DNA of 64,000 nt from Zeimonas arvi (GTDB lineage Bacteria; Pseudomonadota; Gammaproteobacteria; Burkholderiales; Burkholderiaceae_E). The notes under the pieces were generated by a model that saw only the letters and a program-made list of their open reading frames with translations, was not told the DNA's origin and ran no database searches. The first letter of the stretch is position 1. Every line of letters begins with the position of its first letter. Where the stretch lies: the NCBI RefSeq assembly GCF_008039575.1, contig NZ_VDUY01000005.1, forward strand, positions 1 to 64,000, written 5' to 3'. Made by a program: the position numbers and the translations under genes. Below, one piece after another: positions 2,966-64,000 of the stretch.

Positions 2966-2989
2966 ATCCCGCAGGAGGCAAGGCCGCGC

Positions 2990-3992
<1,003 letters not shown>

Positions 3993-4018
<26 letters not shown>

Positions 4019-14499: not shown

Positions 14500-15209
14500 G
14501 CGCGTCGATTCGGGTGAGCGGACTGGTGAAGCGCTTCGGCGGCCTGACCGCGTTGGCCGGCGTCGAACTCGTGGCGCAGCCCGGAGAGGTGCTTGGCATC
14601 ATCGGGGTGAACGGCGCTGGCAAGACCACGTTGATGAACTGCATCTGCGGAATCTACCGTCCCGATGAGGGCCGGGTGATGATCGGCGATCGCGAGACCA
14701 CCGGCCTGACGCCGCACGAGGTGGCCAAGCTCGGCATCGGCCGCACCTTCCAGATTCCGCGCGTCTTTCGCCGGATGTCGCTGATCGACAACCTGCTGGT
14801 GCCGGTACTCAATCGGAGTGAGCCGGACGTCGTGCTCATCGAGCGGGCCGAGTCGATGCTCGAGCGGATGCGGCTGATCGACCTGCGCCACAACTTTTCC
14901 GAGGAGCTGTCCGGCGGCCAGCAGAAACTGCTCGAAATGGCGCGCATGCTGATGCCCGAGCCAAGGGTGGTCATGCTCGATGAGCCCTTCGCCGGCGTGC
15001 ATCCGACCCTGTGCCGGTTCATGATCGAACAGATCGAGTCGATTGCCGCGGCCGGCAAGACTGTTCTTCTGATCAGTCACGACCTGACCTCGATCTACCA
15101 GTTGTCGCATCGGGTGGCGGCGCTCAACGAAGGCCGCGTGATCGCCGAGGGCAGCGTCGACCAGATCCGCAGCGACGCTGCCGTGATCGAAGCCTATCTC
15201 GGAGCCTGA
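14496..15209 (+). CDS. LivG-type ABC ATPase
   Basis: The protein has 237 residues with all ABC landmarks: Walker A GVNGAGKTT (about residues 36-44), Q-loop in GRTFQIPRVF, signature LSGGQQKLLEMARML, Walker B RVVMLDEPFAGVHP and switch histidine in LLISHDL. It hydrolyses ATP on the cytoplasmic face together with the LivF-type subunit (15214). Length and the RTFQ.PR region match LivG. Only 4 nt separate it from the next gene. Confidence 0.92.
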   Translation: MSASIRVSGLVKRFGGLTALAGVELVAQPGEVLGIIGVNGAGKTTLMNCICGIYRPDEGRVMIGDRETTGLTPHEVAKLGIGRTFQIPRVFRRMSLIDNLLVPVLNRSEPDVVLIERAESMLERMRLIDLRHNFSEELSGGQQKLLEMARMLMPEPRVVMLDEPFAGVHPTLCRFMIEQIESIAAAGKTVLLISHDLTSIYQLSHRVAALNEGRVIAEGSVDQIRSDAAVIEAYLGA

Positions 15210-15213
15210 CCGC

Positions 15214-16017
15214 ATGCACCGCGTCGTTCGCAACGAGCAACAGCCAAAGCAGGCAGGGCCTGCGGCCGGGGCGCTGGCGCCGCCAGTGCTGGAGTTGCGC
15301 AACGTCGACGTGGCCTATCACGGCGACATCCGCATCCTGCAGGGCCTGTCGATGGCAGTGCGGCCGGGTCTGATAACCGGCGTGATCGGGCCCAACGGCG
15401 CCGGCAAGTCGACGGCGCTGCGCACCTTCTACGGCCTGCTCAAACCGGTGGTCGGCGACGTGCTGATCGACGGCAAGGCTGTCACCGGCATGCCGCCCTG
15501 GCGCTTCATCGAGCACGGCATCGCCCTGGTGCCCCAGGGACGCAGCCTGTTCAACGAGCTCAGCGTGGAGGACAATCTTCGTCTGGCCTGCTGGACCTTC
15601 CGTCGCGACAAGGCGCGGGTGGCCGAGGCGCTGGACCGTACCTACGCGCAGTTCCCCATGCTCCGGGAGCGGCGCAGCCAGGCCGCGGGCGCGATGAGCG
15701 GCGGCCAGCAGCGCTTCCTGGAGCTTGGCCGGGCGCTGGCGCTGCAGCCGCGCGCCGTGCTGCTCGACGAGCCGACGGCAATGATCGCGCCGAAGGCCGC
15801 CTCCGAGATCTACGAGTTCGTCCGCGAGCTGCCCCGGCAGGGGATCACCGTGCTGCTCGTGGACCAGAACGTCCGCCAGTGCGTGCGCATCTCCGACCAC
15901 CTTTACGTGCTGGAGCTCGGGCGCAACAAGATCGACGGGTCGGCACAGGCCTTCTCGGAGGATTCGAGTCTTCGCGACATGATCGCCGAATGGATCGACT
16001 ACCGCATCGACGCCTAG
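15214..16017 (+). CDS. LivF-type ABC ATPase
   Basis: This 267-residue ATPase has Walker A GPNGAGKST (about residues 56-64), signature MSGGQQRFLELGRAL and Walker B AVLLDEPTAM. The D-loop reads EPTAMIAPK instead of the common SAGLSPK, and the switch region reads LLVDQNVRQ, the H-loop-less form usual in LivF. An N-terminal extension of about 20 residues precedes the domain, so a later start is possible. It completes the LivMHGF set. Confidence 0.9.
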   Translation: MHRVVRNEQQPKQAGPAAGALAPPVLELRNVDVAYHGDIRILQGLSMAVRPGLITGVIGPNGAGKSTALRTFYGLLKPVVGDVLIDGKAVTGMPPWRFIEHGIALVPQGRSLFNELSVEDNLRLACWTFRRDKARVAEALDRTYAQFPMLRERRSQAAGAMSGGQQRFLELGRALALQPRAVLLDEPTAMIAPKAASEIYEFVRELPRQGITVLLVDQNVRQCVRISDHLYVLELGRNKIDGSAQAFSEDSSLRDMIAEWIDYRIDA

Positions 16018-16065
16018 TGGGGCTGGCGTCCGCGGCTCGTTATGCAGCCCCACGAGGAGAACGTT

Positions 16066-17298
16066 ATGCAACGAAGGTCCTTTCTGTGGGCGCTGGCGGC
16101 GCCTGCCATGGTCACCGGCATGGCGACCACACCGGTGACGGCCCAGACGGATGCGCCGATCCGCATCGGCATGACGGTCTCGTCGGCGGGCACATTCGCG
16201 TTGGCGGCCCAGTCCGGGGAGCGCGGATTGCAGATCTGGCTCGACGATGTCAACAGCCGTGGCGGCATCGACATCGGTGGCAAGAAGCGCAAGGTCGAGC
16301 TGGTGAAGCTCGACGATCGTAGCGACAAGACACTGGTGCCCAGGGTCTACGAGACGCTCATCAAGGACGAGAAGGTGGATCTGGTGTTCGGCCCGTTCGG
16401 CAGCACGCTGACCGCAGCCGCGGCCAATGCGACCGAGACGAACGGCAAGTTCATGGTCATCTGGTCGGCCTCCGCGGACTCGATCTACCGGCAGGGCTAC
16501 AAGTACATCGTGTCGGCAACGCAGATCGCCGGCACGCTTCTCGGCCAGCCAGCGGTGCGCGCGCTGCATGCGATGGGCGTGAAGAAGATCGCCTTTGCCT
16601 ACCTGGATGAGCCCTTCCCGGCTTCGCTTACCCAGGGAGCGATCGAACTTGCCAGGAAGCTCGGCATGGAAGTCACCATGGAGGAGAAGTTCGCCAAGGG
16701 CACGAAGGATTTCAACATCCTGATCCAGAAGGCCAGGGCGAGCGGCGCCGAGGCTTTCTACCCGACGGCGTACGAGGGCGACCAGATGACGATCGCCAGG
16801 CAGATCCGGGAGGCCAATGCCGACTTCAAGGCTGTCTACCTCGTGTATGCCTCGCAACCACAGTTCCTTCAGCAGGCGGGCAAGGACGGTCACTACGTGT
16901 TCAGCCAGACGCTGCTGCACGAGAAGATCAACTGGCCGGTCACCCACGGCCTGAACCGCGCGCAGATGATGGAGCGCTACGCCAAGCTGTTCCCGAACGC
17001 CCAGTACACGGCCGACTTCCAGACCATCCTCGCCTATGGCGCCGGCGTTGTCACCGAGCAGATCATCAGCACCGCACAGTCGCTGGATGCGGCGAAGATG
17101 AAGGAGGCGGCGCTGAAGCTGAGCGGCAAGATCGTGACTGCCACCGGCGAGTACGAGATCGACGAAACCGGCAAGCAGTTCAAGAACGAGTTCTCGATCA
17201 TGCAGACGACGCCGACAGGCCTCGAAGTCGTGTATCCGCCACCGGTCGCGACGGCCAAGCCGATCTATCCGGTACCACCATTCTCGCAGCGCAAGTGA
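16066..17298 (+). CDS. Periplasmic substrate-binding protein of the LIV-type importer
   Basis: The start at 16066 follows GAGGAGA by 5 nt and gives a proper signal peptide (MQRRSFLWALAAPAMVTGMA, cleavage after VTAQ or nearby). The ATG 24 nt upstream would bury it. The 410-residue protein is a type I periplasmic-binding fold (Peripla_BP_6) beginning IRIGMTVSSAGTFA. Binding proteins with this layout serve urea, short amides, aromatic acids or amino acids. It is placed last among the transporter genes, 48 nt after the ATPase, and is followed by a strong hairpin. The ligand is probably an amide in view of the operon's first gene. Confidence 0.88.
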   Translation: MQRRSFLWALAAPAMVTGMATTPVTAQTDAPIRIGMTVSSAGTFALAAQSGERGLQIWLDDVNSRGGIDIGGKKRKVELVKLDDRSDKTLVPRVYETLIKDEKVDLVFGPFGSTLTAAAANATETNGKFMVIWSASADSIYRQGYKYIVSATQIAGTLLGQPAVRALHAMGVKKIAFAYLDEPFPASLTQGAIELARKLGMEVTMEEKFAKGTKDFNILIQKARASGAEAFYPTAYEGDQMTIARQIREANADFKAVYLVYASQPQFLQQAGKDGHYVFSQTLLHEKINWPVTHGLNRAQMMERYAKLFPNAQYTADFQTILAYGAGVVTEQIISTAQSLDAAKMKEAALKLSGKIVTATGEYEIDETGKQFKNEFSIMQTTPTGLEVVYPPPVATAKPIYPVPPFSQRK

Positions 17299-52442: not shown

Positions 52443-52877
52443 CTACGGCGCCTGACGCGCCCGCGTGTGCGCGGCCCGCGCCTCGAGCTTGGCCGCAATC
52501 CGGTCCGGGTCGCGGGCCATCTGGTAGCCGAACCACAGGCTCTCGGCGATCCGTTCCGCCAGCTCGTCGGCGCGCTCGCGCATTGCCGCATTGTCCATCT
52601 CGGCCGTGGTCTCGCGGAACAAGGCCAGCCAACGCTGGAAGAGCGCCGGTTCGAGGCCCGGCAGGGCCGCGTGCTTCGGCATCGGCGTGCCGCGATAGCG
52701 CGCCGTGCCGCGCAAGGTGGACGACCAGAAGTCGACCATCTTGCCGAGGTGGTGGTCCCAGTCGGTGATCCGCGCGGCGAAGATCGGCCCGAGCAGGGCG
52801 TCGTCGCGCACCTTCGCGTAGAACGCGTGGACCAGGTGGCGGATCTCGTCTTCGGTGCAGAGGTCGGGATTGAACAT
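52443..52877 (-). CDS. Group III truncated haemoglobin
   Basis: The protein is 144 residues. The start at 52877 follows CGGAG and begins MFNPDLCTEDEIRHLVHAFY; an ATG 51 nt earlier adds an unlikely leader. Two-on-two globin features: Tyr20 at the B10 place, DWDHHLGKMVDFWSS (E helix) and the probable proximal His69 in TPMPKHAALPG, followed by FQRWLALF, typical of group III. These globins bind O2 or NO and may protect against NO or peroxide. It is the last gene of the minus-strand catabolic operon, 54 nt after the racemase-like gene. Confidence 0.87.
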   Translation of the reverse strand: MFNPDLCTEDEIRHLVHAFYAKVRDDALLGPIFAARITDWDHHLGKMVDFWSSTLRGTARYRGTPMPKHAALPGLEPALFQRWLALFRETTAEMDNAAMRERADELAERIAESLWFGYQMARDPDRIAAKLEARAAHTRARQAP

Positions 52878-52931
52878 TGCGCTCCGGGGGAAGACGACCC
52901 GTTCGGGCCGTCGGCCGCAAAGCTTCATATT

Positions 52932-54101
52932 CTATCGATCTTTCGAACCCGGGCCGACCGCGCCCGCGCCCACCAGCGTCCCGAGCCGTTCCGGAGGAAT
53001 GCCCCAGTCGACGGCCAGGCCGCCGCCGCTGGCGCCGGGCTTCTCCGGGCCGCGCGGAAGATCCGGCGGCGTGCGCGAGAAGCGCGGGGCCGGCATGCCC
53101 TGGACGACGCCATCGATCTCCCCGTAGGTGCCGCGCGCCCGGTTGTGCGGGTGCGAGGGCGCCTCGAGCGGGTCGAGCACCGGCGCGAAGCAGGCGTCGC
53201 TGCCCTCGAGCAGCTCGCACCACTCGCGCCGGGTGCGCTTGCGGAAGATCGCGGCCAGCTGCGCCTTGGCCTGCGGCCACTTCGAGCGGTCGTCGAGATC
53301 GGGCAATGCCTCGGCCTCCGGTCCGAGCCTGGCGAGCAGCACGTCGCGGAAGCGATGCTCGATCGGCGCCACCGACACGTAGCCGCCGTCCGCGCACTCG
53401 TAGGCCTCGTAGTAGGGCGCGCCGGAGTCCAGCGTGTTGGTGCCGCGCGGCCCGTTGTGCAGGCCGCCGCCGAGCAGGCCATAGAGCGCCGTCATCAGCA
53501 CTGCGACGCCGTCGACCATCGCCGCATCGACGACCTGTCCCTTGCCCGAGCGCTGCGCCTCGAGCAGCGCGCAGGCGATGCCCCAGGCCAGGAACATCGT
53601 GCCGCCGGCGTAGTCGCCGAGCAGGTTCAGCGGCGGCGTCGGCGCCGCGCCCTCCCGGCCGATCGCGTGCAGCGCACCTGCGAGCGCGATGTAGTTCATG
53701 TCGTGACCGGCCGCCTTCGCGAGTGGCCCGTCCTGGCCGAAACCGGTCACCCGCCCATAGACGAGCCCGGGGTTCAGCGCCAGGCATTCGTCGGGGCCGA
53801 GTCCCAGGCGCTCCATCGTGCCGGGCCGGAAGCCCTCGACCAGCACGTCGGCCTTCGCGATCAGCTCGCGGGCCAGCGCGATCCCCTCGGGATGCTTGAG
53901 GTCGACCGCGAGCGAGCGCTTGCCGCGATTGGCCAGGTCGAGGTGATACGGTCTCGGAACGCCCAGGTCCGTCTGCTCGAGCCGGTCGAGCCGCAGCACC
54001 TCGGCGCCCATGTCCGACAGCAGCATCCCGCACATCGGCGCCGGCCCGATGCCGGCGAACTCGACGACCCTGATGCCGGCCAGCGGCCCTTTCCTCGTCA
54101 T
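52932..54101 (-). CDS. Alpha-methylacyl-CoA racemase-like class III CoA-transferase family protein
   Basis: The protein is 389 residues. It belongs to the CaiB/BaiF fold but carries racemase marks: His133 in AAGHDMNYIALAG, Asp163 in LLGDYAGGTMF and Glu248 in VAPIEHRF. These fall at a constant +7 offset from His126/Asp156/Glu241 of Mycobacterium tuberculosis MCR. It should invert the 2-methyl centre of a branched acyl-CoA rather than move CoA. GAGGGAG precedes the start. It follows the acetyl-CoA hydrolase-like gene by 27 nt in the operon, so a 2-methyl-branched CoA intermediate is likely in this pathway. Confidence 0.88.
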   Translation of the reverse strand: MTRKGPLAGIRVVEFAGIGPAPMCGMLLSDMGAEVLRLDRLEQTDLGVPRPYHLDLANRGKRSLAVDLKHPEGIALARELIAKADVLVEGFRPGTMERLGLGPDECLALNPGLVYGRVTGFGQDGPLAKAAGHDMNYIALAGALHAIGREGAAPTPPLNLLGDYAGGTMFLAWGIACALLEAQRSGKGQVVDAAMVDGVAVLMTALYGLLGGGLHNGPRGTNTLDSGAPYYEAYECADGGYVSVAPIEHRFRDVLLARLGPEAEALPDLDDRSKWPQAKAQLAAIFRKRTRREWCELLEGSDACFAPVLDPLEAPSHPHNRARGTYGEIDGVVQGMPAPRFSRTPPDLPRGPEKPGASGGGLAVDWGIPPERLGTLVGAGAVGPGSKDR

Positions 54102-54128
54102 CTGGCGAACTCCCTCGTTGCCATGCTC

Positions 54129-55412
54129 TCACGACTCCGGCTCGCGCACCGCGCGCGCCAGCGCGTCCCGGAACTGCGGCGCGGCGATCGCGATCAGCCG
54201 CCGCGCGCGCTCGTCGAGATCGCAATGCCTCAGGTCGGCCACGCCCCACTCGGTGGCCACCAGGTCGACGTCGCTGCGGGTGACGGTGGCGGTGGCCGAA
54301 GCCAGTGTCGGCACGATCCGGCTGCGCCGGCCATCGCCGGTCGTGGCCGGCAGCGCCAGCACGGCGCGACCGCCGGCAGAATGGCGCGCGCCGCGCACGA
54401 AATCGTTCAACCCGCCGACCCCACCGCGGGGCACGCCGCCCAGCATCTCGGCATTGGCCTGGCCACTCAGGTCGACCTCGAGCACCGAGTTGATCGCCCA
54501 GAGCCGATCGATGCTCGCGAGCGTGGCCGCGCCGTGGGTGTAGACCGCCGGCCGCACCTCGAAGGCGGGATTGTCGTCGACATGCCGGCGCGCGCGCGCC
54601 GAGCCGCCGACCAGGTTCGTCACCGTGATGCCCGCGTCGATCGTCTTGCGCGCATTGGTGACCACGCCGGACTCGATCAGCTCGATCGCCCGGTCGCCGA
54701 GCAGCCCGGAGTGCAGGCCCAGCTCGCGATGTCCCGCGAGGCCGGCGAGCAGCGCGTCGGGCAGGTTGCCGATGCCGGTCTGCAGCGTGGCGCCGTCGGG
54801 AATGATCTCGGCGAGGTGGCGCGCGATCCGGGTCTCGAGCTCGCCGGCTGCCGCGTCGGAGCGGATCTCGAGCGGCGCGCAGGCCGCCTGCACCGCCAGG
54901 TCGATCCTGAGATCCGCAGGCACCTCGGCCCCGCGCGTCCACGGCGCATCGGGGTTGATCTCCGCCACCACCACGCGCGCGCGGCGCGCGGCCGCCACGA
55001 CGTAGTCGTTGGCCAGTCCGAAGCTCAGCCCCCGGCCCGCTCGGGAGGGCGCAAGCTGGATCAGCACGACGTCGGCGGGCCGCATGCCCGAGGCGAAGGC
55101 GGGCTCGAGCTCGCTGTAGTGCGTGGGCACGATCCGCAGCAGGCCGGCCGAAGCGAGCGAGGCGGCGCGGCCCATCGCGCCGTACGAGCAGAAGCGCAGC
55201 CCCTCGGCCTTCGCGGGCGAGAAGGTGTCGGAGAACAGCGTGCCGACGAACACGTCGACGCCGCCCAGCCGCTCGCGCTGCTCGACCAGCGCGCGAGTCA
55301 GCGTGAGCGGCTCCGCGGCCACCTGCCCGCAGACCACGCAGTCGCCGGGGCGGATCCACTGCGCAAGGTCAGGCACGCCGGGGCGCACCGGCACGACGTC
55401 GGGACGACTCAA
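54129..55412 (-). CDS. Acetyl-CoA hydrolase/transferase family CoA-transferase (RipA/Ict-like)
   Basis: The 427-residue class I-type CoA-transferase of the acetate/4-hydroxybutyrate group has the catalytic Glu expected in NSVLEVDLSGQANAE, with LQTGIGNLPDALL and HSGLLGDRAIELI of the CoA-binding half. Itaconate CoA-transferases (Ict of Pseudomonas aeruginosa, RipA of Yersinia) belong to this family and have similar length. In the operon it lies 28 nt behind an acyl-CoA dehydrogenase, with MaoC and CitE genes nearby, the same partners as in itaconate clusters. Activation of a C5 dicarboxylate is inferred. Confidence 0.85.
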   Translation of the reverse strand: MSRPDVVPVRPGVPDLAQWIRPGDCVVCGQVAAEPLTLTRALVEQRERLGGVDVFVGTLFSDTFSPAKAEGLRFCSYGAMGRAASLASAGLLRIVPTHYSELEPAFASGMRPADVVLIQLAPSRAGRGLSFGLANDYVVAAARRARVVVAEINPDAPWTRGAEVPADLRIDLAVQAACAPLEIRSDAAAGELETRIARHLAEIIPDGATLQTGIGNLPDALLAGLAGHRELGLHSGLLGDRAIELIESGVVTNARKTIDAGITVTNLVGGSARARRHVDDNPAFEVRPAVYTHGAATLASIDRLWAINSVLEVDLSGQANAEMLGGVPRGGVGGLNDFVRGARHSAGGRAVLALPATTGDGRRSRIVPTLASATATVTRSDVDLVATEWGVADLRHCDLDERARRLIAIAAPQFRDALARAVREPES

Positions 55413-55440
55413 GGGGAGGGCTCCTGCATCGGTTCGGCCC

Positions 55441-56607
55441 TCAGTATGACTTCGGCAGCCCGAGCACCCGCTCCGCGATGAAGCACAGCACCAGCTGCGG
55501 GCTGACCGGCGCGATGCGCGGGATCATGACCTCGCGCAGGTAGCGCTCGACGTGGAACTCCTTGGCATAGCCGAAGCCGCCGTGGGTCATCACCGCCTGC
55601 TGGCAGGCATCGAAGCCCGCCTCGCCGGCCAGGTACTTGGCCGCGTTCGCGGCGGCGCCGCAGGGCAGGCCCTTGTCGTACTGCCAGGCCGCCGACAGCA
55701 TCATCAGCCGCGCCGCCTCGAGCGCCATCCAGTTCTTCGCGAGCGGATGCTGGATCGCCTGGTTCTGGCCGATCGGCCGGTTGAAGACCACCCGCTCCTT
55801 CGCATAAGCGGTGGCCTTCGCGAGCGCGCAGCGGCCCAGTCCGATCGCCTCGGCGGCGATCAGGATCCGCTCCGGATTCATGCCGTGCAGGATGTACTCG
55901 AAGCCCTTGCCCTCCTCGCCGATCCGGTCCTCGACCGGGATCTCGAAGCCTTCGAAGAACAGCTCGTTCGAGTCGACCACCTTGCGGCCCATCTTCTCGA
56001 TCTCGTGCACGCGGATGCGGCCGCGATCGAAGTCGGTGTAGAACAGGCTCAGGCCCTCGGTCGGGCGACTGACCTCCTCGAGCGGCGTGGTGCGTGCCAG
56101 CAGCAGGATCTTGTCGGCCACCTGCGCGGTCGAGATCCAGACCTTCTGGCCGTCGACCACGTAGCGGTCGCCCTTGCGCGCCGCGCGCAGCTTGAGCTGC
56201 GTGGTGTTCAGGCCGGTGTTCGGCTCGGTGACCGCGAAGCAGGCCTTGACCTTGCCAGCCGCCATCGGCGGCAGCATCCGCTTCTTCTGCGCTTCGTCGC
56301 CGAACACCACCACCGGGTTCAGGCCGAAGATGTTGATGTGCACGGCCGACGCGCCCGACATGCCCGCGCCCGACTCGGCGATCGCCTGCGCCATGATCGC
56401 GGCCTCGGTGATCCCCTGTCCCGAGCCGCCGTAGTCCTCGGGAATGCAGATGCCGAGCCAACCGTTGGCGGCCATCGCGTCGAAGAAGTCGAACGGAAAG
56501 CCGCCCTCGCGGTCCTTCTTCAGCCAGTAGGCGTCATCGAAGTCGCGGCAGATGCGCTCGATCGAGTCGCGGATGCTTTCCTGTTCGCCGGTGAGCGAGA
56601 AGTCCAT
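55441..56607 (-). CDS. Acyl-CoA dehydrogenase
   Basis: The 388-residue FAD enzyme has the N-terminal segment SLTGEQESIRDSIERIC, the FAD/substrate motif CFAVTEPNTGLNTT, and VDGQKVWISTA. The usual catalytic Glu near the C terminus (YEGT in medium-chain enzymes) is absent: that region reads REVMIPRIAPVSPQ. Instead Glu246 in GMNPERILIAAE matches the base position of isovaleryl- and long-chain enzymes. A 2-methyl or branched short substrate is therefore plausible, such as methylsuccinyl-CoA. It is spaced 15 nt after a CoA-transferase gene. Confidence 0.9.
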   Translation of the reverse strand: MDFSLTGEQESIRDSIERICRDFDDAYWLKKDREGGFPFDFFDAMAANGWLGICIPEDYGGSGQGITEAAIMAQAIAESGAGMSGASAVHINIFGLNPVVVFGDEAQKKRMLPPMAAGKVKACFAVTEPNTGLNTTQLKLRAARKGDRYVVDGQKVWISTAQVADKILLLARTTPLEEVSRPTEGLSLFYTDFDRGRIRVHEIEKMGRKVVDSNELFFEGFEIPVEDRIGEEGKGFEYILHGMNPERILIAAEAIGLGRCALAKATAYAKERVVFNRPIGQNQAIQHPLAKNWMALEAARLMMLSAAWQYDKGLPCGAAANAAKYLAGEAGFDACQQAVMTHGGFGYAKEFHVERYLREVMIPRIAPVSPQLVLCFIAERVLGLPKSY

Positions 56608-56622
56608 CGTCTTCCTCGTCGT

Positions 56623-57855
56623 TCAGTGCTGGATGTCGGGTGGGCGGACTGCGCCGCGCTCGATCAATTCCCGGATCCGGGCGTCGTCGAAACCGGCCTC
56701 GCGCAGGATCTCGTCGCTCTGCTCGCCCAGACGCGGTGCGGGCCGGCTGGGCGACGGCTGGGTGGCCGACCAGGTGGCGGCGATCCGCATGTCGCGGATC
56801 CTGCCTTCGCTCGGGTGCTCGACGGCGCGGAAGAAGCCGGTGGCCGCGAGATGCGGGTCGGACAGCAGTCCCTGCAGGTCGTTCATCGGCATCACCGGCA
56901 CGTCGGCCGCCTCGAGCAGCGCGAGCCACTCGGCGGTCGTGCGCGTCTCGAAGATCCTGGCAAGCTCGGCGTTGACGTGATCGATGTTCGCGATGCGCGC
57001 GGCGAAACCGGCAAAGCGCGGGTCCTGCTTCGGCAGGTCCTCGCGGCCGATCGCCGCCAGGAAGGCGTTCCACTGCTTGTCGTTGTAGACCAGCGCGCAG
57101 ACGAAGCCGTCGCGGGTCCTGTACGACCTGCGGTCGGGCGACAGCTGGCGCCCGTAGCCCCCGGCGTCGAGCGGCGGCTCGAAAGTCAGCCCGCCCAGGT
57201 GGTCGCCGAGCACGAAGCCGGCCATCGTCTCCATCATCGGAATGTCGACGCGCTGGCCGCGCCCGGTGCGCTCGCGGTCGACCAGCGTTGCGGCGATGGC
57301 GCCCACCGCCGCCAGCGCCACCACCCGGTCGCTCAGCGCGGTCGGCACGTAGCGCGGCGTGCCGTCGCCGGCGCGCGCGATCAGGTGGGGCAGGCCGCAA
57401 GCCCCCTGGATCAGGTCGTCGTAGGCGGGCTTGTCGGCGTAGGGCCCGTCCTGGCCGTAGCCGAACACGCCCGCGTAGACGATGCGCGGATTGACCGCCG
57501 ACACCGCCTCCCAGGACAGGCCCAGCCGGGCCATCGCCTGCGGCCGAACGTTGTAGACCAGCGCGTCGGCCTCGGCGGCAAGCCTGAGCAGCACCTCGCG
57601 CCTCTCGGGCTTCTTCAGGTCGAGGCAGATGCTGCGCTTGCCGCGGTTCGTGTTCAGGAAGATCGGACCCATGCCGGCGTGGCGCGCGGGGCCGATCTGC
57701 CGCACCAGGTCGCCTTCGGGAGGCTCCACCTTGATCACGTCGGCGCCGTAGTCGGCCAGCGTCTGCGTGGCATACGGGCCCATCAGCACCGTGGTCATGT
57801 CCACGATGCGGATGCCGGCCAGCGGCCCCGCCGCAGCGCCGTCGCGCTGCGCCAT
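56623..57855 (-). CDS. CaiB/BaiF class III CoA-transferase (paralogue A)
   Basis: The protein has 410 residues. It shows IRIVDMTTVLMGPYATQTLADYGADVIKVE, NRGKRSICLDLKKP and catalytic Asp146 in DKPAYDDLIQG. It is a close paralogue of the gene at 59206: the first 150 residues align without gaps apart from one residue. The CitE and MaoC genes lie between the two copies. Known relatives act on mesaconyl-CoA, citramalate or succinate. It starts 4 nt after the CitE stop. Confidence 0.92.
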   Translation of the reverse strand: MAQRDGAAAGPLAGIRIVDMTTVLMGPYATQTLADYGADVIKVEPPEGDLVRQIGPARHAGMGPIFLNTNRGKRSICLDLKKPERREVLLRLAAEADALVYNVRPQAMARLGLSWEAVSAVNPRIVYAGVFGYGQDGPYADKPAYDDLIQGACGLPHLIARAGDGTPRYVPTALSDRVVALAAVGAIAATLVDRERTGRGQRVDIPMMETMAGFVLGDHLGGLTFEPPLDAGGYGRQLSPDRRSYRTRDGFVCALVYNDKQWNAFLAAIGREDLPKQDPRFAGFAARIANIDHVNAELARIFETRTTAEWLALLEAADVPVMPMNDLQGLLSDPHLAATGFFRAVEHPSEGRIRDMRIAATWSATQPSPSRPAPRLGEQSDEILREAGFDDARIRELIERGAVRPPDIQH

Positions 57856-57859
57856 CGGC

Positions 57860-58738
57860 TCAGCTCCGGCGCGGCGCGCCCGCCGCCGCGTAAGCCAGGA
57901 TCTGGCGTGCGTTCTTCAGGTGCGGCTGGTCGATCATCTTTCCGTCGAGCCGGGCCACGCCGGTGCCGCTGCTCTCCTCGAAAGCGGCGATGACCCGAAG
58001 CGCCCAGTCGATCTCCTGCTCGCTCGGCACGAAGGCGGCGTTCACCACGTCGACGTGCTTCGGATGGATCACCGCCTTGGCCACGAAGCCGTCGCGGCGC
58101 GCCGCCAGGGTCTCTTCGCGCAGGCCGTCGAGATCCTCGATGTCGACGTAGACGGTGTCGACCGCGTCCACGCCCGCCGCGGCCGCGCCGGCCAGGCACA
58201 GGTTGCGCGCCAGCAGGAAGGGGCCGAGGTACTGGCCGGCTTCCTTGTTCCGGCTGGCGCCGAGCGAGGCGGACAGGTCCTCTGCGCCCCACATCAGCCC
58301 GCACAGTCGCGCGCTCGTCCCGCGATAGTCGCCGAGCCCGAACAGCGAGCGCGCGGTCTCGGTGGCGATGGCCAGGATCCTCGTCGCACCCACCTGCTGG
58401 CCGGTCGCCGCCTCGAAGGCGTCGAGGTACAGGTCGAGGCGGCGCAGGTCGTCCGCCGAACCGCACTTGGGCAGCACGATGCCGTGGGGGCGCCCGGACA
58501 TGACCGCGGCCAGGTCGGCCAGCGTGAGCCCGGTGTCCAGCGCGTTGACCCTCACGAACAGCTTCTTGCCGGCGCGCTCGGCGCCCAGCATCGTGCGCGT
58601 GACCTGCCGCGCCTCGGCCTTGCTGGCCGGCGCGACCGAATCCTCCAGGTCGAGGATCAGCGCGTCGGCGGCGCCGGTCATCGCGCGCTCGAACTTGCGC
58701 GCGCTGTCCCCGGGAACGAACAGGTAGGAGCGGATCAT
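57860..58738 (-). CDS. CitE/HpcH-type CoA-ester lyase (citramalyl/malyl-CoA lyase-like)
   Basis: The 292-residue TIM-barrel aldolase begins MIRSYLFVPGDSARKFERA. Metal and substrate residues appear in LILDLEDSVAP, LFVRVNALDT, AIATETARSLFG (Glu) and WGAEDLSASLG (Asp). Stand-alone CitE proteins cleave citramalyl-CoA to acetyl-CoA and pyruvate (Ccl/RipC) or malyl- and methylmalyl-CoA to glyoxylate plus acyl-CoA. The start overlaps the MaoC stop by four bases, coupling hydration and cleavage. No citD or citF genes are present, ruling out citrate lyase. Confidence 0.9.
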   Translation of the reverse strand: MIRSYLFVPGDSARKFERAMTGAADALILDLEDSVAPASKAEARQVTRTMLGAERAGKKLFVRVNALDTGLTLADLAAVMSGRPHGIVLPKCGSADDLRRLDLYLDAFEAATGQQVGATRILAIATETARSLFGLGDYRGTSARLCGLMWGAEDLSASLGASRNKEAGQYLGPFLLARNLCLAGAAAAGVDAVDTVYVDIEDLDGLREETLAARRDGFVAKAVIHPKHVDVVNAAFVPSEQEIDWALRVIAAFEESSGTGVARLDGKMIDQPHLKNARQILAYAAAGAPRRS

Positions 58739-59202
58739 GGCCGTGCCTCCTCGGCGGGCAGGCGCTTCATGAAGGCCGAGCGCCGGCAGACGCAGACCAG
58801 TTCGTCGCGATGGTTGTAGCCACGATGCTCGAACTCGACGATGCCGGCGTTCGGGCGCGAGCCGCTCGCCCTGACCGACACCACCTCGGTCTCCACGCGC
58901 AGCGTGTCGCCGTGGAAGACCGGCTTCGGGAAGCGGATGTCCGACATGCCCAGGTTGGCGATCGTCGTGCCCAGCGTGGTGTCGGTCACGCTGATGCCGA
59001 TCACCAGGCCCAGCGTGAACAGGCTGTTCACCAGCCGCTGGCCGAACTCGGTCTTCTCGGAGAAGTGCGCGTCGAGGTGCAGCGGCTGCATGTTCAGGGT
59101 CATCACCGAGAAAAGCGTGTTGTCCATCTCGGTGACGGTGCGGGTCACCGCGTGGCGGAACACGTGCCCGGGTTCGAACTGCTCGAAATGGAGTCCTGCC
59201 AT
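58735..59202 (-). CDS. MaoC-family hydratase (itaconyl/mesaconyl-CoA hydratase-like)
   Basis: The 155-residue hot-dog-fold protein has the hydratase region TLNMQPLHLDAHFSEKTEFGQRLVNSLFTLGL (about residues 35-66). The catalytic Asp of classical (R)-hydratases (D-x-N-P-I-H) reads Asn37 here while His42 and Asp44 are kept, as in the subgroup that includes RipB-like proteins. It probably adds water to an unsaturated dicarboxyl-CoA, making the substrate of the coupled CitE lyase. It starts 3 nt after the stop of paralogue B. Confidence 0.88.
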   Translation of the reverse strand: MAGLHFEQFEPGHVFRHAVTRTVTEMDNTLFSVMTLNMQPLHLDAHFSEKTEFGQRLVNSLFTLGLVIGISVTDTTLGTTIANLGMSDIRFPKPVFHGDTLRVETEVVSVRASGSRPNAGIVEFEHRGYNHRDELVCVCRRSAFMKRLPAEEARP

Positions 59203-59205
59203 GTC

Positions 59206-60510
59206 CTAAGCTCCCCTGTCCTGGGTCGTGATGGTCGAAGCCGGCGCGGGGGGTGACCCTGGCGGCGGGGCGATCGGCGCGCACGGCGGATCGCGGAACT
59301 GGCGCGCGGCGCCGCTGGCAACGAGGGCGTCGATCCGATCGGGTTCGAAGCCCGCCTCGGCGAGCACCTCGCGCGTGTGCTCGCCGAGGTTGGGGGCATG
59401 CCGGTAGATGCCGGGCGGTGTCTTCGAGAAGGCCTGTGCCGGACGGATCTGCTTGATCGCGCCCTCGGTCGGGTGCTCGACGAGCTCGACGAAGCCGGCG
59501 GCCGCGAGATGCGGATCATGTTCGAGGTCTTCGATCCGGGTGACCGGCATCGCAGGAAGGTCGTGCGCCTCGAACAGCTCCAGCCACTCGGCCGTCGTGC
59601 GTCCGGTCAGGACCTCGGCCAGCATCGCGTAGGCTTCGTCGAAGTGCTGGGCGCGCGTGGCCTGGTCGGCGAAGCGCGGATCGCTGTCCCAGATGTCGGG
59701 CCGGCCGATCGCCTCGAAGAAGCTTCGCCACTGGCGGTCGTTGTAGACCAGCACGCTGATGAAACCGTCGCGCGTGCGATAGGGCCGTCGGTTCGACGAG
59801 ATCAGGCGGCTGTAGCCGGGCGGACCGATCGGCGGTTCGAAGGACAGTCCGCCCAGGTGGTCGCCCAGCACGACCTGTGCCACCGACTCGAACATCGGCA
59901 CCTCGACGTCCTGCCCCTCGCCGGTGCGCTGGCGGTGCAACAGGGCGGCCAGCATCGCGTGGACCGCGTTCAGCCCGGAGATCCGGTCGGCGATCACCGA
60001 GGGCACGTAGCGCGGGGCCTCGTCGCCGGCCAGCTCGAACATCGAGGCCATGCCGCTGGCCGCCTGGATCAGGTCGTCGTAGGCCGGCCGGCCGGCGTAA
60101 GGGCCGTTGCGCCCGTATCCGACGAGCCCCACGTGGACGATTCCCGGGTTCACCCGGGCGATGTCCACGTAGGCCAGGCCCAGCCGGGCCATGGCGGCCG
60201 GACGGATGTTGTGGACGATCGCATCGGCGCCTTCGCACAGGCGCAGCAGCGCCTCGCGCCCCTCCGGCCGCCGGATGTCCAGCACCACGCTGCGCTTGTT
60301 GCGGTTGGCGTGCAGGAAGAGCGGCCCCATGTCGCGGTGCCGCTTGGCGCCCGCCACCCGCATCACGTCGCCCTCGGGTGGCTCGACCTTGATCACGTCG
60401 GCGCCGTAGTCGGCCGCGATCTGGGTGGCGTACGGCCCCATCAGCACCGTCGTCATGTCGACGATGCGAAAGCCGCGCAGCGGGCCCGCCTGCTTACTTG
60501 AGCGCGTCAA
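59206..60510 (-). CDS. CaiB/BaiF class III CoA-transferase (paralogue B)
   Basis: The protein has 434 residues with FRIVDMTTVLMGPYATQIAADYGADVIKVE and catalytic Asp145 in GRPAYDDLIQA. It resembles paralogue A along the whole length and carries a Pro-rich tail of about 25 residues (PPCAPIAPPPGSPPAPAST) that A lacks. Its first 17 nt overlap the end of the TRAP binding-protein gene, tying substrate capture and activation together. It is likely to be the entry step of the pathway or its CoA-recycling partner. Confidence 0.92.
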   Translation of the reverse strand: MTRSSKQAGPLRGFRIVDMTTVLMGPYATQIAADYGADVIKVEPPEGDVMRVAGAKRHRDMGPLFLHANRNKRSVVLDIRRPEGREALLRLCEGADAIVHNIRPAAMARLGLAYVDIARVNPGIVHVGLVGYGRNGPYAGRPAYDDLIQAASGMASMFELAGDEAPRYVPSVIADRISGLNAVHAMLAALLHRQRTGEGQDVEVPMFESVAQVVLGDHLGGLSFEPPIGPPGYSRLISSNRRPYRTRDGFISVLVYNDRQWRSFFEAIGRPDIWDSDPRFADQATRAQHFDEAYAMLAEVLTGRTTAEWLELFEAHDLPAMPVTRIEDLEHDPHLAAAGFVELVEHPTEGAIKQIRPAQAFSKTPPGIYRHAPNLGEHTREVLAEAGFEPDRIDALVASGAARQFRDPPCAPIAPPPGSPPAPASTITTQDRGA

Positions 60511-61495
60511 CGTAGGCCTCGAGGACCTCGGTGCCCGGCTTGCCGCGCTTGTCGAGCGCGGCCGCCCAGTCCTTCTGGACCGTGGCCGCGATGCCGGCCA
60601 GCTTCTTCGTGTCGGCTTCGCCCAGCCTGGTGAAGCTCACGCCGGCGGCCGCGATCTTCGCGCGGTTCGCGGCGACGCCATTGTCGAGGAAGGTGCAGAC
60701 GTTGTTCGCAGCGGCGTCGCCGGCCGAGAGCATCGCCTGCCGCACGTTCTCGGGCAGCGACAGGAACTTCTTCTGGCTGATGCCGTAGCTGATCAGCACC
60801 GTGCCGAAGCTCACGTCCTGCGTGGCGCCCTTCAGGCGGCTGGGCAGGTCGTAGGCCAGCAGGCTGGCGGTCGGGAACACGACGCCATCGATGGTGCCGC
60901 GCGACAGCGATTCGTAGGTGTCGGGCGCCGCCATGTTGACCGGCACGCCGCCCAGCGCCTTGATGGTCGCGCCCTGGGCCGCGCCGGCGGTGCGCAGCTT
61001 CATGCCGTTGATCGACTCGAGCGACTCGATCTTCCGGGTGGCATAGACCTGGTACGGCTCGAGGATCGCGCCGAACAGGACGACGAACCCGTTGGGCGCC
61101 AGTTCCTGCTTGTCGAGGACGCCGCCGCGCACCAGCTTCATGAAGGCCCGCGTGCCCTGGCAGGAGGTGCTCGCCAGGCCCGGAAGCTCGGACACCGTCA
61201 TGAGCGGCATCTTGTCCGACACGTAGGACGGCACCACGTACGCGATGTCGGCGACGCCGGTCATCGCGAGCTGGAACATGTCCTTGGCCTTGCCCAGCTG
61301 CTCTGCCGGGAAATGCTGGACCTCGACCGCGTTGTTGGTCTGGCGACGGACCTCGGCGATCCAGAACTTCAGGCCCTGCTCGGCGAAGAAATGGCCGACC
61401 GGCAGCGAATCGGCCACGCGCAGCGAGGTCTGTGCGCCGGCGAAGAGCGGCAGGGCGGCGACCGCCGCCGCGGCCGCGAGTCTGGCGAGTTTCAT
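60494..61495 (-). CDS. TRAP transporter III, DctP-type substrate-binding protein
   Basis: The 333-residue protein has a signal peptide of residues 1-21 (ending LFAGAQ) and the DctP pattern: SLRVADSLPVGHF at the mature start and ligand Arg in SINGMKLRTAGAAQG. Two cysteines (STSCQGT and NNVCTFL) could form a disulfide. Unlike TRAP I and II, it comes last (order Q-M-P), has no hairpin behind it and overlaps a CoA-transferase gene. It probably binds the dicarboxylate that the following enzymes degrade. Confidence 0.92.
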   Translation of the reverse strand: MKLARLAAAAAVAALPLFAGAQTSLRVADSLPVGHFFAEQGLKFWIAEVRRQTNNAVEVQHFPAEQLGKAKDMFQLAMTGVADIAYVVPSYVSDKMPLMTVSELPGLASTSCQGTRAFMKLVRGGVLDKQELAPNGFVVLFGAILEPYQVYATRKIESLESINGMKLRTAGAAQGATIKALGGVPVNMAAPDTYESLSRGTIDGVVFPTASLLAYDLPSRLKGATQDVSFGTVLISYGISQKKFLSLPENVRQAMLSAGDAAANNVCTFLDNGVAANRAKIAAAGVSFTRLGEADTKKLAGIAATVQKDWAAALDKRGKPGTEVLEAYVDALK

Positions 61496-61549
61496 GCTTG
61501 TCTCCTCATGGATGTGAAAGCGGGACGTGAAGCCAGGGGCGGGGCCGCG

Positions 61550-62836
61550 TCAGAGCATCCGCGACGGGAGCCACAGCACCAGCTGCGGCATCGCCACGAG
61601 CACGGCGATGAGAACGAAATGCGCGAGCACGTGCGGCCAGGCGCCGACGAACACCTCCGACAGGGGGCGCCGCGCGTACCTGGCCACCACGAAGGCGTTG
61701 AGCCCGACCGGCGGCGTGATCATCCCGACCTCGCCGGCCACGATCATCACGACACCGAACCAGACCGGGTCGTAGCCCATCGCCTGGACCACCGGAAGCA
61801 TGACCGGCACGGTCAGCACGAGGATCGCGATCTGGTCCAGGAAGCAGCCCAGCACGACCAGGATGCCGATGATGACCGCGATGACCAGCCAGGGCGGCAG
61901 TTCGAGGGCACCGATGCCGGCGACCACCTTCGGCGTGACGCCGGTGAGCGTGAAGAAGTAGCCGAAGACGTGCGCGCCGACCAGGATCATGAAGATCATC
62001 GCGGTCGAGCGCAGCGCGTTCAGCGAGGCGGCATAGAGCTTGCCGCCCCGCATCCGGCCGGAGGCCGCAGCGATCGCGAAGGCGCCGCCGGCGCCGAGCG
62101 CCGAGGCCTCGGTCGGGGTAGCGATGCCCAGGTAGATCACCCCGGTCACGAAGCCGAACAGCACGATCATCGCCCAGACCCCCCGCAGCGAGGAGACCTT
62201 CTCGCGCAGGCTGTGGCCGTCGCCTCGCGGCGCGCGCGAGGGATCGCGCCAGACCAGGTAGAGCACCGTGAGCACGATCGTGAAGGTGACCAGGATGCCC
62301 GGGATCACCCCGCCGATCAGCAGCTTGCCGATGCTGACGTCGGCGATGATGCCGAACAGGATCAGCGCGATGCTGGGCGGGATCAGCATCGCCAGCGTGC
62401 CCGAGATCGCCACCACGCCGCAGGCGAACCGCGGCTCGTAGCCCTGCTCGAGCATGGCCGGGATCGAGGTGGCCGACAACGTCGCCGCGGCCGCGGTGCT
62501 CGACCCGGAGATCGCACCGAAGCCGGCGCCGGAGAGCGCGGTGGCGATCCCGAGGCCGCCCGGGACCCTGCCCACCCAGACCGCGGCGGCCCTGAACAGG
62601 TTGTCGGCGATCCCGCTCAGGATCACGAACTCCGCCATCAGGATGAACATCGGGATGGAGATCAGCTCGTAGGAACTGACCGTGGAGATCGAGGTCGTCG
62701 ACAGGATGCCCGACAGCAGCCCGAAGCCGCCGTGGGCGAGCAGCCCCGCCGCGCCGGCGATGGCGAGCGAGAAGCCCACCGGCACGCCCCCGGCCAGCAG
62801 CAGGAACAGCAGCACGACGATCGATGCCGCCAGCAT
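61550..62836 (-). CDS. TRAP transporter III, DctM-type large permease
   Basis: The 428-residue multi-spanning protein shows IPMFILMAEFVILSGIADNLFRAA, GAISGSSTAAAATLSATS and the second hairpin GEVGMITPPVGLNAFVVARYA. Its ATG shares one base with the stop of the small permease gene (TGATG). The binding-protein gene follows after 54 nt. Confidence 0.92.
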   Translation of the reverse strand: MLAASIVVLLFLLLAGGVPVGFSLAIAGAAGLLAHGGFGLLSGILSTTSISTVSSYELISIPMFILMAEFVILSGIADNLFRAAAVWVGRVPGGLGIATALSGAGFGAISGSSTAAAATLSATSIPAMLEQGYEPRFACGVVAISGTLAMLIPPSIALILFGIIADVSIGKLLIGGVIPGILVTFTIVLTVLYLVWRDPSRAPRGDGHSLREKVSSLRGVWAMIVLFGFVTGVIYLGIATPTEASALGAGGAFAIAAASGRMRGGKLYAASLNALRSTAMIFMILVGAHVFGYFFTLTGVTPKVVAGIGALELPPWLVIAVIIGILVVLGCFLDQIAILVLTVPVMLPVVQAMGYDPVWFGVVMIVAGEVGMITPPVGLNAFVVARYARRPLSEVFVGAWPHVLAHFVLIAVLVAMPQLVLWLPSRML

Positions 62837-63372
62837 CAGTGGTCCTCCACGCGCGCCGGCAGCGCGATCAGCGCCTTGCCGGTGACCAGCGACAGCGCGT
62901 GACCGACCGCGCGACCCAGCAGGCGCAGCGCGATGACGGCGCTGCCCAGCGCGACGATCGCGTCGGGGATCCAGCTGGGCCATTCGACGGCGCCCATCAC
63001 CACCGCGCCCGAGGCCCACTTCTCGAGCGACGAGCTCGCGAACAGCCAGACGATGACCGAGAAGACCCCCGCCATCGCGAGACCGCCGAGCACCTCGACG
63101 CCGCGCGCCAGCCAGGGCGGCATGGCGGGGCGCAGCAGATCGACCGCGATGTGATGGTCGGCCGCGAGGGTGTCGGAGACCGCGAAATAGAACATCGCGG
63201 GCATCAGGTACATGCCGATCAGCTCGTAGGACCACGGAAAGGGCGCGTTCATCAGGTAGCGCGCGCCCACGTCGCAGAACACGATGGCCATCACCGCCAG
63301 CAGGCAGGCGACGCCGATCGCGCGCAGGATGCGCTCGAGTGCCGCCATCAGGGCCCGGTTGCGCGCGATCAT
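62836..63372 (-). CDS. TRAP transporter III, DctQ-type small permease
   Basis: The 178-residue protein has four membrane segments (about residues 17-37, 48-67, 90-112 and 133-155) and the family stretch FPWSYELIGMYLMPAMFYFAVSDTL. It is the first transport gene of the operon, 55 nt behind the IclR gene. AGGAGAAGACCGGCG precedes the start. Confidence 0.9.
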   Translation of the reverse strand: MIARNRALMAALERILRAIGVACLLAVMAIVFCDVGARYLMNAPFPWSYELIGMYLMPAMFYFAVSDTLAADHHIAVDLLRPAMPPWLARGVEVLGGLAMAGVFSVIVWLFASSSLEKWASGAVVMGAVEWPSWIPDAIVALGSAVIALRLLGRAVGHALSLVTGKALIALPARVEDH

Positions 63373-63427
63373 CGCCGGTCTTCTCCTGAGTCGGGGCGTG
63401 CTCCGCGCATGCGCTCTCTCCGCCCGC

Positions 63428-64000
63428 TCAGGGCAGCCTGGCCACGAGCGCCCGCGCCTCGTCGCGCAGCAGGCGGCCGATCTGGTCCACCTTCGCCTCC
63501 ACGCGGTGGCGGGGCGCCGCGACGACCAGCGCGTGGATCGTGCCGTGCAGGTCGAAGCCCGAGGCCACCGAGATCACGTCCGGACGGAACTCGCCGAGGT
63601 TGGTCGACCAGCACTGCCGGCGCTCCCTTTCCACCGTGTCGAGCAGCGTCTTGCGGACCAGGCGCGCGCGGCCCGAGCCCCCCGCGGGCAGCGCGGCGAC
63701 CACCGCGCGCCGCGCGTCTTCGCCGAGCACCGCCAGTTGCGCCCGGCCCGAGGCCGAGAGGTGCAGCGGCTTCGTCTCGCCCGGATGGGCCGCGAAGCGC
63801 ACCAGCTCGCGGGACTCGACGACATCGAGGTACAGGGAGCGATCGGTGGCGAGCACCGAGTCGATCGCGGTCTCGCCGGTCAGGTCGCGCAGGCGCTCAA
63901 GCGACTCGCGGATCCGCAGCGAAACGGGATCGTTCTCGGAGACCGCGTGCGCCAGGTCGAGCCAGCGTCGCGTGGGGTAGTAGGTCGGCGCAGGCCCCAC
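63428..64000 (-). CDS. IclR family transcriptional regulator, C-terminal part (runs off the window)
   Basis: The visible 190 residues hold the linker and effector domain of an IclR regulator: PTRRWLDLAHAV, LRDLTGETAIDSVLATDRSLYLDVVES, HPGETKPLHLSASGRAQLA, and CWSTNLGEFRPDVISVASGFD with the ligand-domain Cys. The N-terminal winged HTH lies beyond base 64000, so the true start is not visible. IclR proteins often control aromatic or dicarboxylate catabolism. The position 55 nt before the TRAP-led operon and on the same strand suggests that it controls that operon, perhaps as its first gene. Confidence 0.9.
   Translation of the reverse strand: MGPAPTYYPTRRWLDLAHAVSENDPVSLRIRESLERLRDLTGETAIDSVLATDRSLYLDVVESRELVRFAAHPGETKPLHLSASGRAQLAVLGEDARRAVVAALPAGGSGRARLVRKTLLDTVERERRQCWSTNLGEFRPDVISVASGFDLHGTIHALVVAAPRHRVEAKVDQIGRLLRDEARALVARLP

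Follow-up and report, generated by a model that had tools for sequence, protein, structure and literature searches.

Among the closest described relatives of the locus considered here is the itaconate/methylsuccinate cluster of Pseudomonas aeruginosa and Cupriavidus necator, which comprises ich, mcd, mmgE, ict and ccl and the methylsuccinate branch of which was elucidated only in 2023–2025 (PMC9875883; PMC12290011). A second point of reference is ThnP from N47, a naphthalene degrader. In this family I (Cat1) protein, Gly238 occupies the position of the catalytic Glu, and ThnP has been demonstrated to be an intramolecular coenzyme A (CoA)-transferase serving a dehydrogenase of its own operon (PMC11659651). 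We analysed a 64 000-nt stretch of Zeimonas arvi DNA (positions 1–64 000 of contig NZ_VDUY01000005.1; hereafter, the window), in which the gene for an IclR-family regulator and eleven further minus-strand genes form one compact operon at positions 52443–64000 (minus-strand translation). Tentatively, and judging from sequence, we regard the operon as a compact cassette for the breakdown of a succinic acid substituted at C2, with methylsuccinate as the simplest candidate, a reading that is plausible rather than probable; the assignment to the CoA-dependent, dicarboxylate-type pathway class is well supported.

All twelve gene families are backed by Pfam, and the tight packing of the run, already remarked upon in an earlier note on this DNA, is borne out by the coordinates, with intergenic gaps ranging from -17 nt (between DctP and CoA-transferase B) to 55 nt (between IclR and DctQ). 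That the operon is real, beyond chance, is confirmed by the joint recurrence of subsets of its genes in other genera and on a plasmid. The MaoC-family hydratase served as the anchor for the cassette search: an alignment of five MaoC sequences was used as the query, with one genome per species, and the best 80 of 575 loci were kept, to which all counts out of 80 below refer. Thresholds for the cassette members were set by us, and many loci end at contig ends, so that absences carry little weight. One of the 80 loci (L048) is nearly identical to the Z. arvi strain itself and was excluded from the residue-conservation alignments, the rows of which are open frames picked with tblastn. The loci belong mostly to alpha- and betaproteobacteria (many Bradyrhizobium, as well as Reyranella and Stappia), along with a few gammaproteobacteria, actinomycetes and one Chloroflexi metagenome-assembled genome (MAG). 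The CitE-type lyase is encoded in 60 of them, the acyl-CoA dehydrogenase in 32, IclR in 23, DctQ, DctM, DctP and class III CoA-transferase A in 20 each, the acetyl-CoA hydrolase/transferase (AcH) in 18, CoA-transferase B in 13, the alpha-methylacyl-CoA racemase (AMACR)-like protein in nine and the truncated haemoglobin in one.

Relatives of the MaoC protein with 62%–73% identity occur in many genera. MaoC relatives at E < 1e-50 are present in only five of 150 Burkholderiales genomes, Z. arvi included, which indicates that the cassette is patchily distributed. The window is close to Lautropia sp. SCN 70-15, one contig of which matches 9071 of its bases at 97.9% identity. In Afipia sp. Root123D2, the genes for transferase A, the dehydrogenase, AcH, AMACR, MaoC and CitE are consecutive, with transferase B and the TRAP transporter genes on the opposite strand. 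In Frigidibacter mobilis, genes for a CoA-transferase, the dehydrogenase, AcH, a CaiB/BaiF protein, MaoC, CitE and TRAP Q, M and P stand in one row on the conjugative plasmid pcai42C, close to transposase genes; its CaiB/BaiF protein is 57% identical to the Z. arvi AMACR-like protein and retains the catalytic residues. This row on a conjugative plasmid and the recurrence across genera suggest horizontal transfer of a self-contained pathway, and the cassette is probably mobile. The earlier note had proposed a gene-neighbourhood search as a check: the genes do recur together in other genera, but in varying subsets, and in a congener (G102) the set is divided between two strands, with a single class III transferase and the haemoglobin gene next to that for AMACR. 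Three variants deserve mention in their own right. A Bradyrhizobium version (L063) carries an AMP-binding acyl-CoA synthetase gene between those for the dehydrogenase and AcH (2824–4377), possibly an alternative activation step. In a Rubrivivax MAG (L056) and a Thermomonas MAG (L122), the cassette is followed at approximately 14180–17180 by two more dehydrogenase-type genes and a crotonase gene, and these versions may handle a longer substrate (the families were tested on L056). A divergent cluster on a plasmid of Diaphorobacter sp. HDW4B (L171, 1–11137) encodes MaoC (63%), CitE (49%), the dehydrogenase (69%) and a Gly-type AcH (33%) together with additional dehydrogenases and a BKACE-family protein.

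The most distinctive member of the operon is AcH (54129–55412; TTG start), a family I protein resembling 4-hydroxybutyrate CoA-transferases. The catalytic Glu lies in a G[IV]H[TS]E motif in five solved homologues, whereas AcH has GLHSG, with G236 in place of the Glu. The same Gly is present in all 20 other aligned AcH sequences (20 loci, all with a MaoC-clade gene), and 36 positions, G236 included, are invariant across 20 sequences, indicating that the protein is under constraint. Among the 30 best AcH loci of Burkholderiales, Z. arvi included, 25 have Gly and five, the most distant ones (35%–38% identity), have Glu; these are the 30 of 55 matches in which the residue was checked, the other 25 being weaker or second matches. 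In a tree of 48 sequences, 43 are of the Gly type and the five Glu sequences form a separate supported clade; since the long Gly row L171, from the divergent Diaphorobacter cluster, falls outside the main Gly clade, a single loss of the Glu is not established by this tree. AcH is homologous to RipA (PDB 3qli, 186 bits). A ping-pong transferase mechanism has been described for the family, with a Glu nucleophile that RipA retains as Glu249 (PMC3180442); in AcH, the Glu column of the family, as aligned with the five solved homologues, holds Gly236.

Loss of the nucleophile abolishes the ping-pong mechanism described for the family (PMC3180442), and AcH could accordingly hydrolyse CoA esters or be a remnant without catalytic function, which would be compatible with any of the pathways discussed below. 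We consider this rather unlikely, given the constraint on the 36 invariant positions and the reported activity of ThnP despite the same change (PMC11659651). AcH combines a family I/Cat1 sequence with the replacement of Glu by Gly and, sharing this change with ThnP, is a candidate intramolecular CoA-transferase, which, by analogy, is the simplest reading. Glu-less proteins annotated as acetyl-CoA hydrolase/transferase constitute a large group found in many gene contexts; where AcH is paired with a dehydrogenase in two further genomes (G179 and G210), no telling upstream pathway was seen in the surroundings, which were read by eye.

The acyl-CoA dehydrogenase (55441–56607) was placed by tree position and common motifs. 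Its reference is the copy from Cupriavidus sp. EM10 (L195), where genes for an MmgE/PrpD protein and a FAS1-type dehydratase come after the dehydrogenase gene, in a stretch that adjoins a gene identified by eye as encoding the binding protein of a tricarboxylate transporter. This stretch, which yielded no transferase or lyase homologue, is taken as a methylsuccinate cluster by gene content. The Z. arvi protein is 47% identical to this copy, belongs to a related clade and might be a counterpart of the (RS)-methylsuccinyl-C4-CoA dehydrogenase of the P. aeruginosa/C. necator cluster. In a tree of 68 rows (quick method, midpoint root), the 34 rows of the Z. arvi clade are united on a long branch with the 10 rows of the clade that contains the Cupriavidus copy, with a Shimodaira–Hasegawa-like approximate likelihood ratio test (SH-aLRT) value of 100. 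Among the rows with at least 44% identity, the NxER motif is present in 43 of 44 and APxS in 42 of 44 (one row is gapped and one has APxT), as against 1 and 0, respectively, of 23 more distant rows. The clade and the motifs indicate a succinate-type C4-thioester as the substrate.

For the AMACR-like protein (52932–54101), the closest solved structures are 8rmw and 1x74, and it scores 374 bits with the solved racemases (MCR) versus at most 130 bits with CoA-transferases. H133, D134, D163 and E248 are kept in all 13 sequences aligned, and H133, D163 and E248 match what we take to be the catalytic residues of MCR, namely, H126, D156 and E241, positional equivalence having been judged by eye. The protein is a putative racemase. 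An enzyme of this type acts at the carbon adjoining the thioester and would need methylsuccinate in the form of the C1-ester; because the dehydrogenase clade is taken as C4-type, an enzyme shifting CoA between C1 and C4, the predicted role of AcH, would connect the two. In a set of 25 genomes chosen by us, AcH is encoded in all 10 with an AMACR of at least 58% identity and in 7 of the 15 others (one-sided Fisher test, p 0.006, without correction for kinship), the two genes lying no more than 10 kb apart in nine of the 10 genomes and approximately 150 kb apart in one (G414). Counted by locus, AcH is present in 9 of 12 AMACR-bearing loci.

CoA would be supplied by the class III CoA-transferases A (56623–57855) and B (59206–60510; PF02515, 375 bits; TTG start, uncertain), which are 57% identical to each other. 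Among solved structures, transferase A is closest to succinate-hydroxymethylglutarate CoA-transferase (9br7, 207 bits), and D146 and D147 of transferase A are conserved in 27 sequences (the transferase tree kept 37 rows and dropped 35). Known pairs such as SmtAB or BbsEF raise the possibility that A and B are subunits of one heteromer; we rejected it, the two genes being non-adjacent and 57% identical, both proteins keeping the aspartates and few loci holding both.

From the gene content, recurrence, residue changes and clade positions observed, a route can be proposed in which the substrate, each enzymatic step and the order of the steps are predictions. The TRAP-QMP system would import the acid, transferase A would load CoA from succinyl-CoA, and transferase B would be a second such enzyme, perhaps of other specificity. 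The AMACR-like protein would racemise the C1-thioester, in which the methyl-bearing carbon is beside the thioester, and AcH would shift CoA intramolecularly from one of the carboxyl positions C1 and C4 to the other, in the manner of ThnP on its own substrate, perhaps via a cyclic anhydride, which in the case of succinate is a favourable, five-membered ring. Oxidation of the C4-ester by the dehydrogenase would then give a product of the mesaconyl-C4-CoA type, which MaoC would hydrate, and cleavage by CitE would release acetyl-CoA together with pyruvate or another 2-oxo acid. In this scheme the CoA ester is what is racemised, whereas a methylsuccinate isomerase of the MmgE/PrpD family would act on the free acid. 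The more specific proposal, that both enantiomers of a 2-substituted succinate are used through AMACR-type racemisation of the C1-thioester combined with a C1–C4 CoA shuttle by the Glu-less family I protein, is possible but doubtful. Such a route was not found in the literature searched, nor was the gene set found described in the openly licensed PubMed Central literature (titles and abstract openings).

No PF03972 (MmgE/PrpD) match was detected at E 0.001 in the Z. arvi genome (98.9% complete) or in the congener G102, and the Cupriavidus MmgE/PrpD protein as a query yielded no match at 1e-60; elsewhere, the family is strikingly expanded in three genomes of one genus (G055, G140 and G100, with 75, 69 and 33 matches, respectively).

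A number of observations weigh against the proposed route. Homologues of the methylsuccinate isomerase (59%–73%) are present in 5 of the 23 MaoC-locus genomes searched (G399, G410, G412, G415 and G416), in three of them together with a cassette-type AMACR, so that the racemase does not strictly replace the isomerase, and different substrates may be involved; a simple substitution of one for the other was rejected, there being no clean complementarity among the 23 genomes. The C. necator dehydrogenase takes both stereoisomers, which lessens the need for a racemase. The pairing of the racemase with AcH has exceptions: AMACR occurs without AcH at L050, L112 and the Paracoccus plasmid L175, and in seven Bradyrhizobium genomes with AcH the AMACR matches (1e-100) are on another contig or distant. 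No other cassette-like gene was found at 16 of the 25 Gly-type AcH loci (approximately 4 kb), and the likeness of AcH to ThnP, which is absent from the AcH tree, lies in the family and the Gly change. Among the 80 MaoC loci, 30 have CitE alone and nine have no further cassette gene (IclR not counted). As for the dehydrogenase, some members of the 34-row clade come from other genetic contexts (Polaromonas, Comamonas and Sulfitobacter plasmids), an adjoining MmgE/PrpD gene was seen for just one of the 10 rows in the other clade, the Cupriavidus copy, and the deep branch orders depend on quick, midpoint-rooted trees.

The same chemistry could instead act on another acid. This might be a 3-substituted glutarate such as 3-methylglutarate, which would yield acetyl-CoA and acetoacetate via 3-hydroxy-3-methylglutaryl-CoA (HMG-CoA), or else a succinate with a bulkier alkyl or aryl group at C2. 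A Rhizobium relative of CitE (46.8% identity) is encoded downstream of isovaleryl-CoA dehydrogenase and methylcrotonyl-type carboxylase genes, and Rv2498c, a solved CitE relative, cleaves both (S)-citramalyl-CoA and (R)-HMG-CoA (PMC6689899); together, the leucine-type cluster and the dual activity make a glutarate-type substrate possible and count against a succinate. Other points in favour of a different acid are the best solved relative of transferase A, the isomerase homologues present in the five MaoC genomes mentioned above, the additional dehydrogenases and crotonase of the two MAG versions and the cyclohexane dicarboxylate on which ThnP acts (PMC11659651). The dehydrogenase clade, however, indicates a succinate skeleton, and we regard a different acid as unlikely. 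In the Rhizobium cluster itself (Rhizobium sophoriradicis plasmid, L178, 1921–7831), genes for relatives of both MaoC and CitE follow the isovaleryl-CoA dehydrogenase and methylcrotonyl-type carboxylase genes, and this cluster might represent an (R)-HMG-CoA leucine route outside mycobacteria.

The MaoC-family hydratase (58735–59202; PF01575) and the CitE-type C–C lyase (57860–58738; PF03328) bear on whether the cassette is, instead, an itaconate, mesaconate or citramalate pathway in which AcH, the AMACR-like protein and one CoA-transferase are accessory or broadening enzymes. The best-scoring curated families for the two proteins are RipB/Ich and RipC/Ccl, respectively, a CoA-transferase, a hydratase and a lyase are all present, and transferase A resembles SUGCT, which we assume to accept itaconate. 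Both proteins, however, fall short of the equivalog cut-offs, by roughly half or even more: MaoC reaches 128 of 340 bits, a cut-off that, as a caveat, was attained in none of the 399 Burkholderiales genomes in the family search, and CitE scores 192.7 bits against 375, only 4 bits more than with the citE family (189 bits; cut-off 443). Furthermore, itaconate, mesaconate and citramalate require neither a dehydrogenase nor a racemase, yet the dehydrogenase, found in 32 of the 80 loci, is the commonest member after CitE. An itaconate-type pathway thus appears distinctly unlikely, and the cassette, as far as profile scores can tell, matches neither published itaconate cluster, being alike in predicted chemistry and different in membership. 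The earlier note was right in describing a CoA-dependent, dicarboxylate-type cassette with TRAP and IclR genes that is related to the itaconate/methylsuccinate clusters and has extra genes, but its description as an expanded itaconate cluster does not hold in the strict sense, given these scores and the lack of a detected MmgE/PrpD gene in the genome. Of the mapping onto Rip-type enzymes that it drew on, the homology to RipA stands for AcH, which lacks the catalytic Glu of RipA, and not for the class III transferases, which are not RipA homologues; and the CoA-transferase-fold genes, counted there as three, are four by fold (three with the class III fold, namely A, B and AMACR, plus the family I gene AcH).

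The closest solved chain to CitE is 3qll (134 bits), with malyl-CoA lyases at 106–114 bits, and with 65 bits to the haloarchaeal malyl-/beta-methylmalyl-CoA lyase model the protein is not closest to the lyase type of the ethylmalonyl-CoA pathway; MaoC scores 67 bits with the 2-methylfumaryl-CoA hydratase family. Least probable of all is a route through C1-esters, with CitE cleaving beta-methylmalyl-CoA and AcH as a side enzyme: AMACR acts beside the thioester, MaoC also matches the mesaconyl-CoA hydratase PF19315 (66.7 bits) and has beta-methylmalyl-CoA dehydratase 8hgn as its best solved relative (77.5 bits), and one methylmalonyl-CoA-mutase-family match in the Z. arvi genome might serve propionyl-CoA, but CitE and MaoC both score higher with RipC/Ccl (193 versus 65 bits) and RipB/Ich (128 versus 67 bits), the dehydrogenase groups with the Cupriavidus-copy clade, taken as C4-type, and there is no job for AcH. 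The sole mutase-family match (C5:82974–84563) is located approximately 19 kb past the operon in a 1163-codon frame, perhaps that of a fused acyl-CoA mutase.

The remaining genes encode the regulator, the transporter and the haemoglobin. The IclR gene spans contig positions 63428–64198, its start at 64198, read from the contig, being beyond the window, so that only the C-terminal part (63428–64000) is included; PF01614 and PF09339 are over the cut-off. The TRAP transporter consists of the small permease DctQ (62836–63372; PF04290, 75.9 bits; no NCBIfam match), the large permease DctM (61550–62836; PF06808, 307 bits; TIGR00786 over the cut-off) and the substrate-binding protein DctP (60494–61495; PF03480 and NF037995 over the cut-off). 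DctP, which was aligned with 20 relatives, has 7nqg as its best solved match (89.8 bits) but was rejected as a clue to the substrate, its closest solved relatives pointing to no clear ligand; some of them are binding proteins for lignin-derived aromatic acids. The truncated haemoglobin (52443–52928; PF01152, 28.5 bits), for which the first possible start is maybe too early, an internal ATG lying 17 codons further, had been counted in the earlier note among the members of the operon. It is probably not part of the cassette: the only haemoglobin-bearing locus of the 80 has it with MaoC alone, and it adjoins other cassette genes in the congener only.

Itaconate and related C5 acids have antimicrobial and immunomodulatory effects and are of industrial relevance, and the cassette may represent a second, probably mobile solution for the methylsuccinate branch, with a different isomerisation logic. 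The analysis predicts that intramolecular CoA transfer is the activity of those acetyl-CoA hydrolase/transferase proteins in which the GIH[ST]E motif carries a Gly. If so, ThnP-type transferases would gain a role with small dicarboxylates, a function would be assigned to a large protein group now annotated as ‘acetyl-CoA hydrolase/transferase’, correcting many annotations, and pathway engineering would gain a C1–C4 shifting enzyme. If confirmed, the combination of a racemase with a CoA shift would be a new way of using branched dicarboxylic acids.

Compared with the described systems, the cassette shares with the P. aeruginosa/C. necator cluster a CoA-transferase, a related acyl-CoA dehydrogenase, a hydratase and a CitE-type lyase, and just as the P. 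aeruginosa cluster is flanked by transporter genes (PA0884–0886), the Z. arvi cassette includes TRAP genes. It differs in that no MmgE/PrpD isomerase was detected in the genome and, compared with the Cupriavidus cluster L195, in that MaoC is not a FAS1-type dehydratase, and adds AMACR-like and Glu-less family I proteins as well as two class III transferases. Homologues of RipA, RipB and RipC of the Yersinia pestis rip operon are present as AcH, MaoC and CitE, but without the catalytic Glu of RipA, with MaoC and CitE below the equivalog cut-offs and amid many additional genes. With the second half of the ethylmalonyl-CoA pathway (Mcd, Mch and Mcl1), the proposed route shares dehydrogenation, hydration and retro-Claisen cleavage in the same order, whereas the Z. 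arvi MaoC and CitE score higher with the RipB and RipC families. The proposed C1–C4 CoA shift on a C5 dicarboxylate resembles that by Mct of the 3-hydroxypropionate bicycle, which, unlike AcH, is a class III enzyme and to which transferases A and B score approximately 71 bits (TIGR04253; cut-off 725). The parallel to the thn operon of N47 is in the Gly-for-Glu family I protein that shares an operon with an acyl-CoA dehydrogenase, there ThnO, which reportedly needs one of two regio-isomeric thioesters (PMC11659651). Unlike the thn operon, the Z. arvi cassette adds TRAP uptake, a racemase-like protein and CitE, and would be expected to act on a small acid.

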